A stretch of 64,000 nucleotides of DNA from assembly GCF_023347235.1 (NCBI RefSeq), contig NZ_CP094467.1:1116001-1180000 (forward strand), written 5' to 3'. The first letter of the stretch is position 1. The number at the start of each line of letters is the position of its first letter. Under the pieces are notes generated by a model. That model saw only the letters and a list, made by a program, of their open reading frames with translations, had not been told where the DNA came from and did not search any database. Made by a program: the position numbers and the translations under genes. This stretch comes from Faecalibacterium sp. I4-1-79. GTDB taxonomy: Bacteria > Bacillota > Clostridia > Oscillospirales > Ruminococcaceae. Below, piece by piece: positions 26,535 through 34,432 of the stretch.

Positions 26535-26867
26535 TTAGAGATCAGCCAGCCGGGAAAGGATCTGCCGACCAATCTCAATCAGTTCATCCAGCCGCTGCCG
26601 CAGGTCCTCCATGTCGGTGGCATAGACCCGACCATTTTCATTGGCGGCTTTGGCGTACTGGTTCAGGTTGTTGCTGCACATCTGCAAGAGATATGCCATG
26701 CGTTGCAGTTCTTTCAGGTCGAGATGCAGGCAGTAACCATCCAGTGCCATCTTGCGGATATACGCACTCAGGCTGCGGATGCCCATGCCCAGCATCTTTT
26801 CATAAATGCGGTTCTTCTCGGCTTTTGTGGTTCTCAGGATGATGATCTCATCCCGCTTTTCTTTCAC
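26535..26867 (-). CDS. mobC: MobC-type relaxosome accessory protein
   Basis: 110 residues from a GTG start that overlaps the giant helicase gene by 4 nt (GTGA). The N-terminal half is ribbon-helix-helix-like (IILRTTKAEKNRIYEKMLGM, then SAYIRKMALDG) and the C-terminal half has the MobC-typical LKELQRMAYLLQMCSNNLNQ. MobC proteins bind oriT and help the relaxase. It is translationally coupled to the helicase and followed by CD1845 and the relaxase. Confidence 0.87.
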   Translation of the reverse strand: MKEKRDEIIILRTTKAEKNRIYEKMLGMGIRSLSAYIRKMALDGYCLHLDLKELQRMAYLLQMCSNNLNQYAKAANENGRVYATDMEDLRQRLDELIEIGRQILSRLADL

Positions 26868-29800
26868 CGGGCATCACCGTCCTTGTCGTAATAACTGCGG
26901 AAGGGCTTCACTGGCTCCGGCTGATTGGATTTTTCTCCCAGCGCAGCCAGCACGGACGGACGAGTTGTGGGAGTTTCTTCTGTTTTTTCGGGAGAATCCT
27001 GTGCCGAACTGCGATCAATGTTCAGCAAGGCGTTCAATTCAGCAAGTCGGGCAGACTTTTCAGCCAGTTCTTCCTCCTGTACGAAGGGCTTTGCCACTTC
27101 AACCTCTGCGGCCCGCTTTTGCTGTTCAAGGTTTTGCAGGGCATTTTCGGCATCTGCAATACGGTCAGCGAAATTGTCGATGGCATTGTCCAGACGAGTG
27201 ATATTGCCGCGCGCATCATCGCCCAGCGACACCGGGTAACTCAACTCTGCCCGGAGTACGGCCTGATGCTCATTTTTGAAGCTGTCGAATCGAATGTTCA
27301 GTTCAAACCCACGGTAGGTGCCCAGCAGCATCATATCAGCATTGGGCATCTCCTGCCGAGCCAGCAGCAGCCGTTCGCCTGCAGCCTTTTTGTCATCGTA
27401 CACCATGCCCTTGATGGTCATGCCGCAGAAGTTTTCTTTGTCCTGCGGGTGTGCTACTGCAATCTGTGAATCCTGTTGTAAAGCAGCAATGCGGGTTTTC
27501 TGTTTCTGGATCTCCTCCGGGAAAGTTTTGAGCAACTTATCCTCCAGACGATATTTCTGATTCTGGAAGTCTCCGCGCAGCACCTTCAATTTTGCTACCT
27601 GCACGTCCAAGTCCATCTTTTCCCGGATGCGAGGGTCGCCTGCACACAGAGCCTTGATTTCTGCGTAAGATAAAGCCTGTTCGTCAATATCATCGCAAGA
27701 TCGCATAGGCGATTTGCTCGTCATGATCTGCGAGATAAACTTCTGTTTATTCTCAAGGGTCTGATAGAGGTAGGCGTCAAATGTCGATTCCGTGACGTAG
27801 TTATAGACGTAGACTTGTTTGTTTTGATTGCCTTGGCGGATGATTCTGCCGTTGCGCTGGGTCATATCAGACGGACGCCAGCCTACATCCAGATGATGCA
27901 CCGCCACAAGCAGCGTCTGGACGTTGGTGCCAGCTCCCATCTTTGCAGTGCTGCCCAGCAGCACACGCACCCGTCCGCTGCGTACCTTGGAGAAAAGTTC
28001 TGCTTTCTTGTTCTCCGTATCTGCGTTGTGGATGAACTCGATCTCCTGTTCGGGCACACCGGCGTTGAGCAGCTTGGTGCGAATATCATCATAGACGTTG
28101 AACGAACCGTCCCCCTTGGGAGTAGACATATCGCAGAAAATCAGCTGGGTCAGCTTCTGCTCCTTGGTGTCGTTCCAGATGCGCAGGACGTTGTTGACGC
28201 AGGCATTTAACTTGCTGTTGGGGTCATCGGGCAGAGCGGAATTCATCAACCGCTGATCAAGACCGATTTTGCGGCCATCCGACGTAATTTTCAACATATT
28301 ATCCACAGAAGGGTCAACAGAACCGCTGTGGACTTCGGCTGCACGTTCGCTCAACGCCTGCACCATGTCCTGCTGGATTTCCGAAGGCTTGACCACTACG
28401 GTTTCAAATTTAGCTTGGGGCACTGGCAGGTTCAACTGGTCGCTGGTCTTGATATCCGCCGCTTCTTTGAACATCGCCATCAGTTCAGGAAGATTGAAGA
28501 ACTTAGCGAATCTTGTTCTTGCCCGGTAGCCGGTGCCTTCTGGGGCAAGTTCGATGGCGGTAGTAGTTTCGCCAAAAGTCGATGCCCATGCGTCAAAATG
28601 GGTCAATCCTTTCTGTTGCAAGGTGTTGTACTGGAGATAGCGCATGAGGGTGTACATCTCGGTCATGCTGTTACTCAGGGGCGTACCCGTTGCAAAAATC
28701 ACGCCACGGCCTCCGGTGATTTCATCCAGATAGCGGCACTTGCCGAACATATCGCTGGATTTTTGCGCCTCGCTCGTACTCAAACCTGCGACATTACGCA
28801 TTTTCGTGTACAAGTAGAGGTTCTTAAACGCTTGGCTCTCGTCCACAAACAACCTGTCTACGCCCAATTGTTCAAACGTAACCACATCATCTTTACGGTC
28901 TGTGCCTTGCAGCTTTTCCAATTTCTGTTTCAAAGACTTGCGCAGCTTTTCCAGCTGCTTTACCGTGAAATGCTCACCAACCTGTGCTTTCGCTTCTTCG
29001 ATGGCCTCCTCGATTTCATCCATCTGTTCCTGAATCAGACGCTCCTGTCGTTCTGCGGACAAGGGTATCTTTTCAAACTGGCTGTGTCCGATGATAACCG
29101 CATCATAATCACCGGTCGCAATTTTCGCACAGAATTTTTTGCGATTACCCGGTTCAAAATCTTTCTTGCTGGTAACCAGCAGCTTTGCATTGGGGTACAG
29201 GCGTAAAAATTCGCTGGCCCATTGTTCCGTCAAATGGTTTGGCACAACAAAAAGACTTTTCTGGCACAAGCCCAGACGTTTCAGTTCCATAGCGGAAGCC
29301 GCCATCTCAAAACTCTTGCCGGCACCGACTTCGTGCGCCAAAAGGGTGTTGTACCCATACAGCACATGGGCAATCGCATTGCGTTGATGCTCTCGCAAAT
29401 TGATCTCCGGGTTCATGCCCACAAAATGAATGTGGGAACCATCGTATTCACGGGGGCGGGTGCTGTTAAAAAGCTCGTTGTACTTCTTCACCAATAAGGC
29501 ACGCCGCTGAGGGTCTTTCCAGACCCAGCCAGCGAACGCATCCTTGATGGCCTGCTGTTTCTGCTGGGCGAGGGTGGTTTCGTTTTGATTCAGCACACGC
29601 TTTTCTTTCCTATCCTCCTCGATGGTATCATAAACGCGGCTATCACGCAAATTCAAGGTGTCTTCCAAAATCTTGTAAGCATTGGCCCTGCGGGTACCGT
29701 AGGTTTCGGTGGCCATAATGTCACCAAAGCCAGTAGCAGATTTATTGCTGATTCGCCATTCGGAAGTGTAAGGGGAGTAGCGAACGGTGATGGCATTGTT

Positions 29801-32800
29801 GTAGCGGATACGATAGGGCGGCTGAAAAGTTTCCATCATAAACTGCTGCACGATGGAGGGGGCAAGCCAAGTGGCACCCAAACGCACATCAATTTCAGAT
29901 GCCTCCAGATCTTTGGGCTGTGCCTTGGTCAGTGCGTCCACATTAACCTTGAACTCCGGGTGACTTTCCGCAGCGAGCTGTGCCATCCGCAGCTTATCGC
30001 GTACATTACCCGAAAGGTATTCGTCCGCTGTTTGCCAGCCGGCTTCCGGGTCGTCAGCATCCGCAGCAGGGTCTTTGAAGATCACGCCGGAGAGTTCGGT
30101 GGTGATGCGCTCATAGTTGCCGGGAGTGCCCAGCAGTTCTGCCATATAAGGCAGATCAACCTTACCATGCTCCCCGATTGACACTGCCAACGCTTCGCTG
30201 GGGGTATCCACGCTGGTGACAACACGCTCTGGTCGAATCGTCCGCTTGGTGAACATATCTGCCTTGGACTTGAGATTTTTATTCTCGTCCAGATTCTCCA
30301 GTGAGCAGAGCAGATAGTAGGAACTGTCATCATCGAACAGGCGGGCATTTTTCTTGTCGTTGATCAGCCCGTATTTTGCGGTAAAGGCATCATAGGCGGC
30401 ATTCAACTTGGCCTGCGATGCCTTAATGTCCTCGTCCGGGAAGTCATTCAACTGCTGCTGAATCAGTTCGTTGACGATCTGCCGCAACTCCACCATACCA
30501 GCTACACGGCCTTTGGCGTTGTCGGACAGTTCGATCTGCGTCATGATAGAGTTCTCTCGGTAGTAGATCTCGCCATCAACAACCGTATAGCTAAAATTCT
30601 TCACAGTCGGGTCTGCGGGCAGCGTTTTGCGCTGTGCTTCCGCATCTGCGACGTCCGGGGCAGCAATCTCCACTGCAGTGTAATTGCCCTCGATGTGCTG
30701 CACCGCCTCGGCAAGCTGGTCTGCAAGGTTTGCACCCTCGATGGGAGCAACGGTCAGGTCGTGACCGTACTGGGTGCTTTCCAGTGTCAGCTGTCCCAGC
30801 ACCATCTCCGGGTGGTCTACGAAATACTGGTTGATGGCAAAGCCATCTTCGGTCTTACCGAGCTGCACCCATGCAGGTTCGATGTCCGCAGGGCGGTCAC
30901 GCTTCTGCAAAAAGATAATATCGCTGACAACATCCGTACCAGCGTTGGCACGGAAAGCGTTGTTGGGCAGACGAATGGCCCCCAGCAAATCGGCTCGTTC
31001 TGCCATGTGCTTGCGGGCAGAAGAATCTTTACTGTCCAGCGTGTAACGACTGGTGACAAACGCCACCACGCCGCCCGGACGCACTTGGTCAATGGCCTTG
31101 GCGAAAAAGTAGTTGTGGATAGAAAATCCCAGCTTGTTATATGCCTTATCGTTGACCTTGTACTGACCGAAAGGCACATTGCCCACCGCCAAATCGTAGA
31201 AATCACGGCGGTCGGTAGTCTCAAAGCCAGCCACGGTAATGTCGGCCTGCGGGTACAGTTTTTTCGCAATGCGCCCGGTGATGCTGTCCAGTTCCACGCC
31301 GTACAGCCGACTGTCTGCCATGCTGGAGGGCAGCATTCCAAAGAAGTTGCCCACACCCATAGACGGTTCCAGAATATTACCGGACTTAAAGCCCATCTTC
31401 TCGACCGCATCATAAATAGAGCGAATCACCACCGGGGAGGTATAGTGGGCGTTCAGGGTGCTGGAACGGGCGGCGGCGTATTCGTCCTTAGAGAGTAGCC
31501 CTTTCAACTCTGCATATTCCTTTGCCCAACTATCTTTGCCGGGGTCAAAGGCATCTGCCAGACCGCCCCAGCCCACATACTGCGCCAGCACCTGCTGCTC
31601 CTCGGCGGTGGCACCACGGTGCTCATCTTCCAGCTTGAACAGGGTGCGAATGGCTTCAATGTTCCGGGCATATTTCTGCTTTGCACCGCCCTCGCCCAGA
31701 TGGTCGTCCGTAATGTGGAAGTTTCCGGCAGGTTCCGGCGCAGGTTCGGCATTTAGGGCTTCATCCAAGGCAGCGGCATCCGGGAATGTCCGAACCTTTC
31801 CGTCCATCACGGTAGAGATAGGCAGCTTGTCCAGTTCTTCGTCCGACAGTTCTGGCTCGACCTGCCGCAGACCGTCCTCGAATTGTCGTTTGTTGATAAC
31901 CTCATTATCCCACGACTGCCCCTGCGCGCTGGTGTCGATGCGAACATCCGTTTCGCCCACATAGCCGATTTTCCCTTCGATGGTTCGTGTAGGAAAATCA
32001 ACGATAACATTGTCACCGACCTTGTAATCGGGCAGGAGGGATTCCATCGTGTCCTGCTCCTCGTACAACTCCCGGACAAGCGCCAGCGGTTTCTCCCGGA
32101 AAATTGGCATCCGCATTTCTGCCAGAGCCACATCCTGCAAGGTAACGCTGTCCTTATCGAAGTTGACCGTATCCACCCGGAAGGCGCGCCCCTCCATGTG
32201 GACGGTAGCACCCAGCGGCAGATAATCCTCCCGGCGCAGATACTTGGTCTGGTGGTGGGTGCCGTCCTCGTTCAGCCCGGCAAGGTAAATATTTTCACCG
32301 CACTGCCACAGCTGCTTGGCACGGTATGCCCACTGGTCGCGGGGAAAGCCGGTGACCGGGACGGTGCCCAGTGCCGTTTCCTTTTCCAGCAGTTTGCCGT
32401 CCAGAAGTTCGCAGATTTTTAGGGCATCCTCGCCGTAAAATTCAAACTGCCCGTTCTGCTCAAAGCCTACCAGCGCATCCGGGTACTGCTCTTTCAGGGC
32501 GTTGTACTCGGTGGCGGCATCCAGCGGCAGCAGTGCCGGGCGTTCTTCCGCTTTGCTGTGGTAGTGCTCCAGTTCTTCGTCCGTGACGCTGACCAGTTCC
32601 GAGAAATCCAGAGCTTCCAACTCGGTTTCGGTCAGATCTTCCAGACTTTCGTACTGCCGCTCGTCGATCAGCACCTCGCCCAGATACCGCTCTACCCGGT
32701 ATCCCACCAGATCTACGTTGACCTGAATGGGAATTTCCTCATCGGTGGCGTTGGTGTAGGCAATACCGATCTTGGACAAATCAGAAAAGTCCGGCTCTGA

Positions 32801-34432
32801 GTCGTATTCCTCCTGACAAAATTTCCAGATCAGGTTTTTGGCACGGGTCAGGTCGGCATCCGGTTTTACGCTGACGGGCGAAAGGGGCGTGTAATGCTCC
32901 TTTTCTCTATCCGTCAGATAGCGGTCGGACTGGACCATCAGGTCGATATACCGTTCCACCTGCGTCCAGCTTAACGTGAATTTCTTGTGTTCGGGGTAAT
33001 GGTCAAATTCCATTCCTCTCCCGTCGTGGTTCACAAAGCCCCGGCTTCCGTCCAAAAAATCGTGGGAGTGCCCGCCGATGCCGTACTCTTTTGCCAACGC
33101 TTTGGCACGGAGATTACGGTCAGGCTGGGTCTGGTACAGCGCCATAATGCGCTGTTTACCACCCATAAATCCCGAACCGTGCTTGCACAGTTCGTTCTCA
33201 ATTTCCGCTTGAGATAACGAAAAAGCGGAGGGCGTTTTTTCGCTCTCCGCTTGGTCGATTTTTTTAATTTGCTCAGCTTCGGTGGGGATGTGGGCATCGA
33301 AGAAACTTAGCTGTAGATCAGTTCCGTCAACACCAGTTCCTCGGTCTGCGCTTTCAGGCTGTTCATGTGCTGTACCCACGCCAGCTGATTCTGCTCCTTG
33401 TCCGGGGCAGGGGTCTGTTTCAAGAGCTGTGCCATGGTCTGCTGCATCTGGCTCTCTGCCGTCTGCTCCACCTCCATCAGATGCGGGTACAGGCTCCCGT
33501 TCAGGAGCATCGAGTTGTACAGTACCGGGCGATGCTCCTTCAGGTACGTCCGGCGCAGCCTGCCGTACTTGCCCAGCGGCTTCCGGGGCTGGTTCAGGGT
33601 CAGGTTCGGGAGAAGGTAATCCCCGACGGTCGAGTAGGTCACGTTCCTGCTGTTCGTATTCATATTGGCTCCTTTCTGCATTGCGGCGGCGAATGGTGGT
33701 TTTCACGGTGCGCTCGATGTTCCGCAGCACCTCCCGGCTCATGTCGCTGACGGCTGCGCCGAGGGCGTAAACGGCATCCGGGGTGGAAAACTCGTGGATG
33801 GCTCGGAAATCGTCTTTATCGAACCACCCGGCAGGCTCAAAACCGCATCGTTCCAGCAGCGTGTAGGTGACACTGATGGTGGCGGCGCTTTTGAACTGCA
33901 TCTCCACTCCGGCTTCATCATAATCCATCAGGAGCGAGCCGTCAACGATGGCGCGGATGTCGCCGCCGTTGTTGTCCCAGTAATCTGCCACCAGTTTCCC
34001 GGCAACATCTGCGAGCTGCTGACTGACACGCTCCCCACTGATACCGTAGGTGTCGGCGAGCATTTCCGAAACCGGCTGCACCAAATCGGGACCGAGCTGC
34101 CACACCTCCGGGTCACGTGAATTGCGGCGCACCCCGGTGTCCGACACATCGAAAACGTAGTGCAGGCGCGGGAATCCGCTGGATTCGTCCAGCAGGGCGA
34201 TGCCCTTAGAGCCACGCCTGACATAGCGGTTCATCCGGTTGCGCCAAATGTCAAATTCGGCGCAGGCGGTGGCATCGGGCCGCTGGGCGTAGATCATCAG
34301 CTGGTCTGCAAAGGGGTACTTGTACAGCCGGGATGCGGTGATCAGGTAGTCCGTCCAGCTTTCCCAGTATCGGGTCAAGCCGTTGGCTGTGCGCTGGGCA
34401 AGGGCGAGATATTCTTCGGTTTTGCTTGGCAT
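26864..34432 (-). CDS. 2,522-aa polyvalent protein: N6-adenine methylase plus SNF2 helicase
   Basis: One uninterrupted frame of 7.5 kb. Residues 1-270 resemble LtrC/ArdC-like N-terminal domains of conjugative elements. Residues about 257-375 are a Pro/Glu/Gly-rich linker, where a second gene (tnpV-like, 33307-33663) is read in another frame. An adenine methylase core follows, with motif I EPSMGVGNFFG (about 1020) and the catalytic box as NVPF instead of NPPY (about 1085). The SNF2-type helicase has EVGAGKS (about 1700), LFVDESQAF (about 1864), ATGTPLSNS and NGRIIRQGN (about 2194). The tail is coiled coil. Such proteins are hallmarks of Tn1549-type ICEs and are thought to protect or process incoming DNA. 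GGAGG lies 5 nt before ATG. Confidence 0.9.
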   Translation of the reverse strand: MPSKTEEYLALAQRTANGLTRYWESWTDYLITASRLYKYPFADQLMIYAQRPDATACAEFDIWRNRMNRYVRRGSKGIALLDESSGFPRLHYVFDVSDTGVRRNSRDPEVWQLGPDLVQPVSEMLADTYGISGERVSQQLADVAGKLVADYWDNNGGDIRAIVDGSLLMDYDEAGVEMQFKSAATISVTYTLLERCGFEPAGWFDKDDFRAIHEFSTPDAVYALGAAVSDMSREVLRNIERTVKTTIRRRNAERSQYEYEQQERDLLDRRGLPSPEPDPEPAPEAAGQVRQAAPDVPEGASPGTVQLDAPEREPVPASDGGGADGREPDAADHGTALETDPCPGQGAESAGVGTAHEQPESADRGTGVDGTDLQLSFFDAHIPTEAEQIKKIDQAESEKTPSAFSLSQAEIENELCKHGSGFMGGKQRIMALYQTQPDRNLRAKALAKEYGIGGHSHDFLDGSRGFVNHDGRGMEFDHYPEHKKFTLSWTQVERYIDLMVQSDRYLTDREKEHYTPLSPVSVKPDADLTRAKNLIWKFCQEEYDSEPDFSDLSKIGIAYTNATDEEIPIQVNVDLVGYRVERYLGEVLIDERQYESLEDLTETELEALDFSELVSVTDEELEHYHSKAEERPALLPLDAATEYNALKEQYPDALVGFEQNGQFEFYGEDALKICELLDGKLLEKETALGTVPVTGFPRDQWAYRAKQLWQCGENIYLAGLNEDGTHHQTKYLRREDYLPLGATVHMEGRAFRVDTVNFDKDSVTLQDVALAEMRMPIFREKPLALVRELYEEQDTMESLLPDYKVGDNVIVDFPTRTIEGKIGYVGETDVRIDTSAQGQSWDNEVINKRQFEDGLRQVEPELSDEELDKLPISTVMDGKVRTFPDAAALDEALNAEPAPEPAGNFHITDDHLGEGGAKQKYARNIEAIRTLFKLEDEHRGATAEEQQVLAQYVGWGGLADAFDPGKDSWAKEYAELKGLLSKDEYAAARSSTLNAHYTSPVVIRSIYDAVEKMGFKSGNILEPSMGVGNFFGMLPSSMADSRLYGVELDSITGRIAKKLYPQADITVAGFETTDRRDFYDLAVGNVPFGQYKVNDKAYNKLGFSIHNYFFAKAIDQVRPGGVVAFVTSRYTLDSKDSSARKHMAERADLLGAIRLPNNAFRANAGTDVVSDIIFLQKRDRPADIEPAWVQLGKTEDGFAINQYFVDHPEMVLGQLTLESTQYGHDLTVAPIEGANLADQLAEAVQHIEGNYTAVEIAAPDVADAEAQRKTLPADPTVKNFSYTVVDGEIYYRENSIMTQIELSDNAKGRVAGMVELRQIVNELIQQQLNDFPDEDIKASQAKLNAAYDAFTAKYGLINDKKNARLFDDDSSYYLLCSLENLDENKNLKSKADMFTKRTIRPERVVTSVDTPSEALAVSIGEHGKVDLPYMAELLGTPGNYERITTELSGVIFKDPAADADDPEAGWQTADEYLSGNVRDKLRMAQLAAESHPEFKVNVDALTKAQPKDLEASEIDVRLGATWLAPSIVQQFMMETFQPPYRIRYNNAITVRYSPYTSEWRISNKSATGFGDIMATETYGTRRANAYKILEDTLNLRDSRVYDTIEEDRKEKRVLNQNETTLAQQKQQAIKDAFAGWVWKDPQRRALLVKKYNELFNSTRPREYDGSHIHFVGMNPEINLREHQRNAIAHVLYGYNTLLAHEVGAGKSFEMAASAMELKRLGLCQKSLFVVPNHLTEQWASEFLRLYPNAKLLVTSKKDFEPGNRKKFCAKIATGDYDAVIIGHSQFEKIPLSAERQERLIQEQMDEIEEAIEEAKAQVGEHFTVKQLEKLRKSLKQKLEKLQGTDRKDDVVTFEQLGVDRLFVDESQAFKNLYLYTKMRNVAGLSTSEAQKSSDMFGKCRYLDEITGGRGVIFATGTPLSNSMTEMYTLMRYLQYNTLQQKGLTHFDAWASTFGETTTAIELAPEGTGYRARTRFAKFFNLPELMAMFKEAADIKTSDQLNLPVPQAKFETVVVKPSEIQQDMVQALSERAAEVHSGSVDPSVDNMLKITSDGRKIGLDQRLMNSALPDDPNSKLNACVNNVLRIWNDTKEQKLTQLIFCDMSTPKGDGSFNVYDDIRTKLLNAGVPEQEIEFIHNADTENKKAELFSKVRSGRVRVLLGSTAKMGAGTNVQTLLVAVHHLDVGWRPSDMTQRNGRIIRQGNQNKQVYVYNYVTESTFDAYLYQTLENKQKFISQIMTSKSPMRSCDDIDEQALSYAEIKALCAGDPRIREKMDLDVQVAKLKVLRGDFQNQKYRLEDKLLKTFPEEIQKQKTRIAALQQDSQIAVAHPQDKENFCGMTIKGMVYDDKKAAGERLLLARQEMPNADMMLLGTYRGFELNIRFDSFKNEHQAVLRAELSYPVSLGDDARGNITRLDNAIDNFADRIADAENALQNLEQQKRAAEVEVAKPFVQEEELAEKSARLAELNALLNIDRSSAQDSPEKTEETPTTRPSVLAALGEKSNQPEPVKPFRSYYDKDGDAR
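33307..33663 (-). CDS. tnpV: TnpV-family protein, overprinted inside the helicase gene
   Basis: 118 residues from ATG 33663, with AGGAG 5 nt upstream. It lies wholly inside the coding sequence of the giant helicase in a different frame. The sequence matches TnpV of Tn4451-like elements: YSTVGDYLLPNLTLN, PLGKYGRLRRTYLKEHRPVL, YNSMLLNGSLYPHL and a C-terminal WVQHMNSLKAQTEELVLTEL. TnpV is a small transposon-borne protein of uncertain role. The opposing frame is a low-complexity linker, as expected if this frame is the constrained one. Confidence 0.75.
   Translation of the reverse strand: MNTNSRNVTYSTVGDYLLPNLTLNQPRKPLGKYGRLRRTYLKEHRPVLYNSMLLNGSLYPHLMEVEQTAESQMQQTMAQLLKQTPAPDKEQNQLAWVQHMNSLKAQTEELVLTELIYS

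Follow-up and report, generated by a model that had tools for sequence, protein, structure and literature searches.

Can one stretch of bacterial DNA be kept as two genes of recognised families, read in two frames of the same strand? The question is raised by a 64,000-bp stretch of Faecalibacterium sp. I4-1-79 (contig NZ_CP094467.1, positions 1,116,001 to 1,180,000; hereafter the window), in which a tnpV gene lies entirely within the 2522-codon open reading frame of a methylase-helicase gene, here called the giant. The overprinting at 33307-33663 is confirmed, and it is larger in extent than the preliminary description of this DNA had supposed. Comparison of related sequences indicates that the locus is very probably an old dual-coding gene pair; nearly every related element that we examined still has both readings. 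The features concerned are the following.

26864..34432, minus strand: giant gene, 2522 amino acids (aa), methylase-SNF2 helicase, DarB-like (Pfam SNF2/ResIII/Helicase_C; PHROG 10089)
33676..34432, minus strand: N-terminal domain of the giant, aa 1-252, preceding tnpV, distantly ArdC-like
33669..33675, minus strand: Shine-Dalgarno sequence AAAGGAG of tnpV, within giant codons, 5 nt ahead of the ATG
33307..33663, minus strand: nested tnpV, 118 aa, ATG to TAA (Pfam PF14198, E 1.3e-35; PHROG 24764, E 2e-31)
33307..33663, minus strand: giant-frame linker, about aa 257-375, on the DNA shared with tnpV (by composition and mild constraint)
26921..31792, minus strand: DarB-like methylase-helicase part, aa 881-2504 (PHROG 10089, DarB-like antirestriction, 1636 bits)

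The tnpV frame and the giant gene

On the minus strand, tnpV runs from an ATG at 33663-33661 to a TAA at 33309-33307, in the +1 frame of the giant; each TnpV codon begins on the middle base of a giant codon. Another ATG upstream, at 33681, is an alternative start, from which the product would have 124 aa. The giant's own frame is free of stops throughout, including across tnpV. The small protein matches the whole of the PF14198 TnpV profile (positions 1-111 of 111) at 122.1 bits, the cut-off being 27; NCBIfam and PADLOC gave no match for it. The first reading of this locus, as a 118-aa TnpV-family protein with its own ribosome site in another frame of the giant, holds to the exact base. PF14198 has its namesake in TnpV of Tn4451/Tn6104, and the window protein matches that family (the Tn4451 protein itself lay outside the scan). 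In those elements tnpV is an independent gene, whereas in the window it sits inside another gene, in another frame.

A single messenger would carry the giant gene. Ribosomes starting at the giant's ATG would make a 2522-aa protein with N-terminal, methylase and helicase domains, in which a disordered linker would span the shared DNA. Other ribosomes would start at the internal Shine-Dalgarno sequence, one base over, and make the 118-aa folded TnpV, whose reading ends shortly ahead of the next giant domain.

The DarB-like family match (PHROG 10089) extends over both the methylase and the helicase parts, and by this likeness the giant is probably an antirestriction-type gene guarding mobile DNA. 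Its first 252 residues form a conserved N-terminal domain with no Pfam match above cut-off. A Thermus protein containing ArdcN matches the N-terminus at 26.5%; PF08401 (ArdcN) itself had no match, at E values up to 1, in the N-termini of the four giants scanned, and we therefore call the domain only distantly ArdC-like. A match to MutS domain I (PF01624, E 2.6e-7) lies farther along the giant, at 32261-32509 (aa 642-724).

In the linker beneath TnpV, the residues G, P, S, D and R are enriched and hydrophobic ones are few; disorder-promoting residues make up 77% of the linker, against 56% of the flanks. It had been described as rich in Pro, Glu and Gly, which is largely right, except that Glu is barely raised. 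TnpV, modelled from 18 sequences, is predicted to fold into a beta hairpin and four helices, with a predicted local distance difference test score (pLDDT) of 87.7. The second viral match to the model in BFVD, Q8W6J4_2 (a 1093-residue entry), had probability 0.97, E 0.84 and a template modelling (TM) score of 0.48.

Occurrence of the nested arrangement

The strain's own genome has 12 places that match PF14198, six directly behind a giant N-terminus and six elsewhere (one with an internal stop). The six giant N-termini with nested tnpV lie on contig G000:C1 at these positions:

429479-430592
729979-731095
937827-938940
1149316-1150432
2067773-2068889
2938466-2939579

We searched with PF14198 in 31 genomes of the genus, 148 of the family and 299 of the phylum, and found matches in 23, 69 and 19; the giant N-terminus, searched in 31 genomes of the genus, 148 of the family and 291 of the class, matched in 18, 34 and 63. 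These genome sets overlap, part of the matches were fetched as loci (L numbers below), and many of the surveyed loci were found via TnpV itself; 17 of the 18 named loci found by the giant N-terminus are from Faecalibacterium.

The loci up to L266 yielded 222 distinct TnpV genes: 148 nested, 72 stand-alone and two behind an N-terminus with a broken giant frame. No other type of long gene was found to enclose any of the 222. All 148 nested copies are in phase 1, at most 700 nt behind the N-terminus, with no stop in the giant frame (one pair ends at a contig end), whereas 70 of the 72 stand-alone copies have at least one stop in the corresponding frame. The absence of stops is in part definitional, because nesting was defined by a long open frame.

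Counted from the giants, 153 of 159 distinct N-termini have TnpV behind them, every one in phase 1, and in 150 of the 153 tnpV lies under the N-terminus's own open frame; the exceptions (L151, L207 and L263) stop before the end of tnpV. L263 (Monoglobus plasmid 12) has its N-terminal domain separated from the rest, and the frame over tnpV into the giant is open for 2193 codons. Of the six N-termini lacking TnpV, one belongs to an intact giant, L198; the other five are either truncated or lie at contig ends. Loci found by the N-terminus alone (L116-L172) had TnpV in 55 of 57 cases, the misses L138 and L142 being fragments; in this set L151 is broken and L161 runs out at a contig end. A further series (L173-L211), some of which repeat earlier giants, had TnpV in 37 of 39, the misses being L198 and L200 (contig end).

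Stops interrupting the TnpV frame in close relatives would, according to the preliminary description, have told against it. The TnpV match reaches profile position 105 of 118 behind 145 of the 153 N-termini; of the remaining eight, one runs off its contig and the other seven are divergent, the match fading 7-24 codons ahead of the stop. Even where a giant N-terminus shares only about 30% identity with that of the window, TnpV can be recognised.

Nested copies also occur in plasmids of Listeria seeligeri, Virgibacillus and Enterococcus wangshanyuanii, where the genes are named only 'SNF2-related protein'. Six Bacilli plasmid records outside the training of the profile are all nested in phase 1, with scores from 36 to 135 bits; the independent nested records come from Cohnella, Listeria innocua, Streptococcus agalactiae, S. 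suis, Aerococcus and Enterococcus faecalis. The Aerococcus giant is interrupted downstream of the tnpV region, and the two streptococcal copies have, judged by eye, strong ribosome sites ahead of them. The stand-alone ArdC-like genes of Thermus and Lacticaseibacillus gave no TnpV match. In the Cohnella and Monoglobus gene table, TnpV is listed and the giant is absent, which is no more than suggestive, the plasmid table being incomplete. The proposal of overprinting with both frames kept is supported by this survey, and the arrangement is present in Clostridia and Bacilli.

Chance, translation and selection

Open-frame length as the sole evidence was rejected, since 54 other same-phase frames of at least 115 codons occur in the 148 giants. 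We instead considered homology, a conserved ribosome site, the fixed phase and the selection pattern, which are beyond chance. A strict test found a Shine-Dalgarno sequence before 126 of the 148 nested tnpV genes, against 465 of 4524 control windows; in a loose test, with the start picked by the motif, all 42 distinct copies from the genus had a ribosome-site motif before the start codon. TnpV might instead be reached by a frameshift from the giant N-terminus, producing an N-terminus-TnpV fusion in place of internal initiation. Such a fused reading can exist in DNA: in L. monocytogenes pFV4 (L282) the giant frame is broken before tnpV and the N-terminus reads into it. However, the start codon with its Shine-Dalgarno sequence is conserved, and the distance between N-terminus and tnpV varies widely among giants, unlike a fixed slippery site (slippery sites were not searched for), so that we regard a frameshift as quite improbable. 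An IS6 transposase gene lies near the broken giant of pFV4, whose tnpV is readable and whose annotation is an ArdC-like protein.

More than 100 diverged homologues make selection on the two frames measurable, and substitution patterns were compared across them, as had been proposed. Among 120 nested copies, differences fall mainly at the third base of TnpV codons, from 55% in near pairs to 42% in far pairs; 59 stand-alone copies have the same bias (67% to 51%), and the giant flanks vary at the giant's third base. As a yardstick of rate we used the four-fold sites of the giant flanks, with pairs of copies binned by divergence (15, 41, 186 and 203 pairs). Sites that are silent in the giant and alter TnpV (giant four-fold sites, at TnpV base 2) changed at 0.20, 0.15, 0.11 and 0.13 of the flank rate, and sites that are silent in TnpV (its four-fold sites) and alter the giant at 1.03, 0.61, 0.46 and 0.48. 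With stop-prone contexts excluded, the latter values were 1.07 (0.28-2.22), 0.72 (0.49-1.01), 0.51 (0.39-0.62) and 0.51 (0.42-0.62). The ratios of the two site classes therefore point to purifying selection in both frames, strong on TnpV and mild on the disordered linker.

A relic TnpV frame, carried as a dead passenger of a conserved linker in a locus where only the giant matters, would be in keeping with the other long same-phase frames just mentioned. We give it next to no chance: giant-silent changes at TnpV base 2 are held far below the flank rate, TnpV residues are more conserved than those of the linker (0.171 against 0.260 differences in the 0.20-0.35 bin), the ribosome site is conserved, and TnpV is recognised behind even the distant N-termini.

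The converse is that TnpV is real and the giant is in fact two genes, joined by a linker frame that is open by accident. The disordered composition and mild constraint of the linker would suit this, as would the broken copies L151, L282 and L285. The contrast in stops between nested and stand-alone copies speaks against it, as does recoding: when five nested TnpVs were recoded synonymously, the giant frame was open in only 0.08-0.62% of 5000 draws each. Together with the ratio of about 0.5 in the more diverged bins, stop-prone contexts excluded, this makes an accidental linker very improbable. Codons ending in T that would make a giant stop number 0 of 1213 in nested TnpVs, because the giant frame is open, against 278 of 842 in stand-alone ones; in other words, keeping both frames restricts the codon choice of TnpV, which is a cost.

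Several observations weigh against an old pair maintained in both frames. In 22 of the 148 nested copies no Shine-Dalgarno sequence passes the strict test. In the 15 closest pairs the linker ratio of 1.03 (0.33-2.17) carries no signal of constraint, and in the 0.10-0.20 bin the interval touches 1 once stop-prone contexts are excluded; recombination could also blur the rate ratios. Four giants (L151, L207, L282 and L285) are broken with tnpV still readable. Solved structures gave no match to TnpV, either by sequence (best E 0.79) or by fold (PDB, E up to 0.001). The trees described below contain long branches, and the root of TnpV has no independent basis. Finally, L198 (655-1500, G252:C68) is an intact giant with a shorter linker and no TnpV. 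Giants of this kind had been named in advance as counter-evidence, and this is the one intact case. In the N-terminus tree it belongs to a starred set of 25, in which no other member is TnpV-less, and we therefore read it as a loss.

Origin, role and related systems

The sequence comparisons make it most likely that the overlap arose once, before the sampled giants of Clostridia and Bacilli parted or spread. Across 136 giants, distances between TnpVs follow those between N-termini (Mantel r 0.913, with none of 999 permutations as high) and those of the part behind the linker (r 0.653); nested TnpV and N-terminus are thus inherited jointly. A tree of 80 N-termini was rooted with two ArdC-like proteins that stand alone; it has many open forks and long branches, and its deep branches with judgeable sequence carry TnpV (L200 ends with its contig).

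A smaller, midpoint-rooted TnpV tree held 108 of the 222 rows (64 of 148 nested, 44 of 72 stand-alone), after exclusion of 16 named loci, copies below 95 bits or 100 aa, broken copies and near-duplicates. Its stand-alone tnpVs do not form one clade (approximately unbiased test, p 0.000137), and it requires six changes between nested and stand-alone, two of them forced by starred branches. The midpoint root falls among nested copies and all stand-alone copies lie within nested ones. A larger tree of 157 rows, long branches included, requires 10-11 changes, five of them forced, and places four long-branched stand-alone rows (L212, L227 and two of L229) in its deeper half. Stand-alone copies thus lie mostly inside nested lineages, and many of them probably escaped from giants. 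One origin followed by escapes is the simplest account, because re-entry at one place and in one phase is implausible.

The preliminary description had proposed that a formerly separate tnpV was absorbed into a fused gene. The comparisons do not show this: the deep giants with sequence to judge are already nested and most stand-alone copies lie inside nested lineages, so that present-day separate tnpVs look like descendants of nested ones and not like their ancestors. In the form still to be weighed, a separate tnpV would have been taken in by fusion of the genes flanking it, and with the deep giants of sufficient sequence already nested this could have happened only as a very old event at the root. 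Absorption is favoured by the predicted fold of TnpV and the disordered composition of the linker, and also by the four long-branched rows. The codon usage of TnpV is closer than that of the linker to the giant's own in 86 of 143 cases (mean 0.089 against -0.075), a small difference that leans weakly towards TnpV as the older frame and therefore leaves some probability to absorption at the very root. Against this stands the smaller tree, with every stand-alone copy inside nested ones. We hold absorption at the root as a tentative possibility. It is also only tentatively that we suggest the TnpV family was born, or first fixed, nested in a giant of conjugative elements, the stand-alone tnpVs of Tn4451 type being repeated escapes. 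If so, an antirestriction giant would be a bacterial nursery from which finished genes are exported. A recent escape of the stand-alone Faecalibacterium copies (L046, L076, L078-L080) is not claimed: in the smaller tree L080, which represents them, groups within the genus clade, but its branch is long, and a divergent nested pair fell there in the larger tree.

Giants of the same architecture are known. The snf2 gene, for a methyltransferase with an SNF2 helicase domain, is conserved in integrative and conjugative elements (ICEs) of the ICESa2603 family and present in pheromone plasmids of enterococci, and the portions of that report that deal with snf2 describe no nested tnpV (PMC12942858). 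Such DarB-like genes share the methylase-helicase architecture of the window giant (PHROG 10089). According to the relevant passages of PMC9815147, stand-alone tnpV genes occur in S. suis elements that have snf2 as their insertion site. The Streptococcus giants L284 and L288 were examined for a repeat that has been reported at the ends of snf2-borne elements, and it was absent from both. Overprinted pairs in E. coli have, as here, a long overlap in two frames; as summarised in their reports, these are few cases in which recent or orphan genes are named (for example PMC4683798, PMC2268670, PMC5810103). The window pair, unlike these, consists of genes from two recognised families, and its conservation spans Clostridia and Bacilli.

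Overlapping genes are a known kind, and what sets this pair apart is its depth, its two recognised families and the likely export of a gene. To our knowledge, there are few documented bacterial cases in which genes of two recognised protein families overlap at length on one strand. We found no description of a nested tnpV in the titles and abstract starts listed by our searches of open-access papers (subscription papers and preprints lay outside). Annotation tends to keep one frame, calling the same arrangement either 'SNF2-related protein' or 'TnpV protein'. The pair offers a testable case of a small protein gene living in, and perhaps leaving, a larger gene, and it places TnpV within an antirestriction-type gene of conjugative elements.

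Since nested copies are bound to giants of antirestriction type, we favour, as a doubtful possibility, a role for TnpV as a small accessory protein of a module that would protect or establish the incoming element. A role in excision or recombination is its rival and seems unlikely; for Tn4451, the passages of PMC3158075 on TnpV postulate one in excision on the grounds of its resemblance to lambda Xis. We rejected the idea that TnpV regularly accompanies serine recombinases: with a one-query profile and a limit of 1500 nt (most loci having about 1.5 kb of flank), a recombinase was found near 16 of 72 stand-alone and 2 of 148 nested copies. Neighbours of stand-alone copies include relaxases, serine recombinases, a coupling protein, ParB and helix-turn-helix proteins; 20 of them, from 17 loci, were diverse by Pfam, two having no family. 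The last four bases of a recombinase gene in a Campylobacter plasmid are shared with tnpV.

At the tnpV stop (33296-33316) the giant frame reads LQLSFFD. Similar residues, Q-L-S/T/N-(L/F)-(F/L) in a pattern of our own, occur there in 60 of the 148 giants, and QISLF is kept in the linker of L198 at the place where tnpV ends in other giants. We take this motif to resemble the sliding-clamp binding motif.

A gene annotated as Cas9 inhibitor AcrIIA9 (L261, 5451-5858) lies 2.4 kb ahead of the giant in the Enterococcus wangshanyuanii plasmid. The 74-kb contig IMGVR_UViG_2531839010_000002 (L268, L278) carries both a nested tnpV and, some 7 kb farther along, a stand-alone copy, the latter 95% identical to the tnpV beside tet genes in pSGG1.

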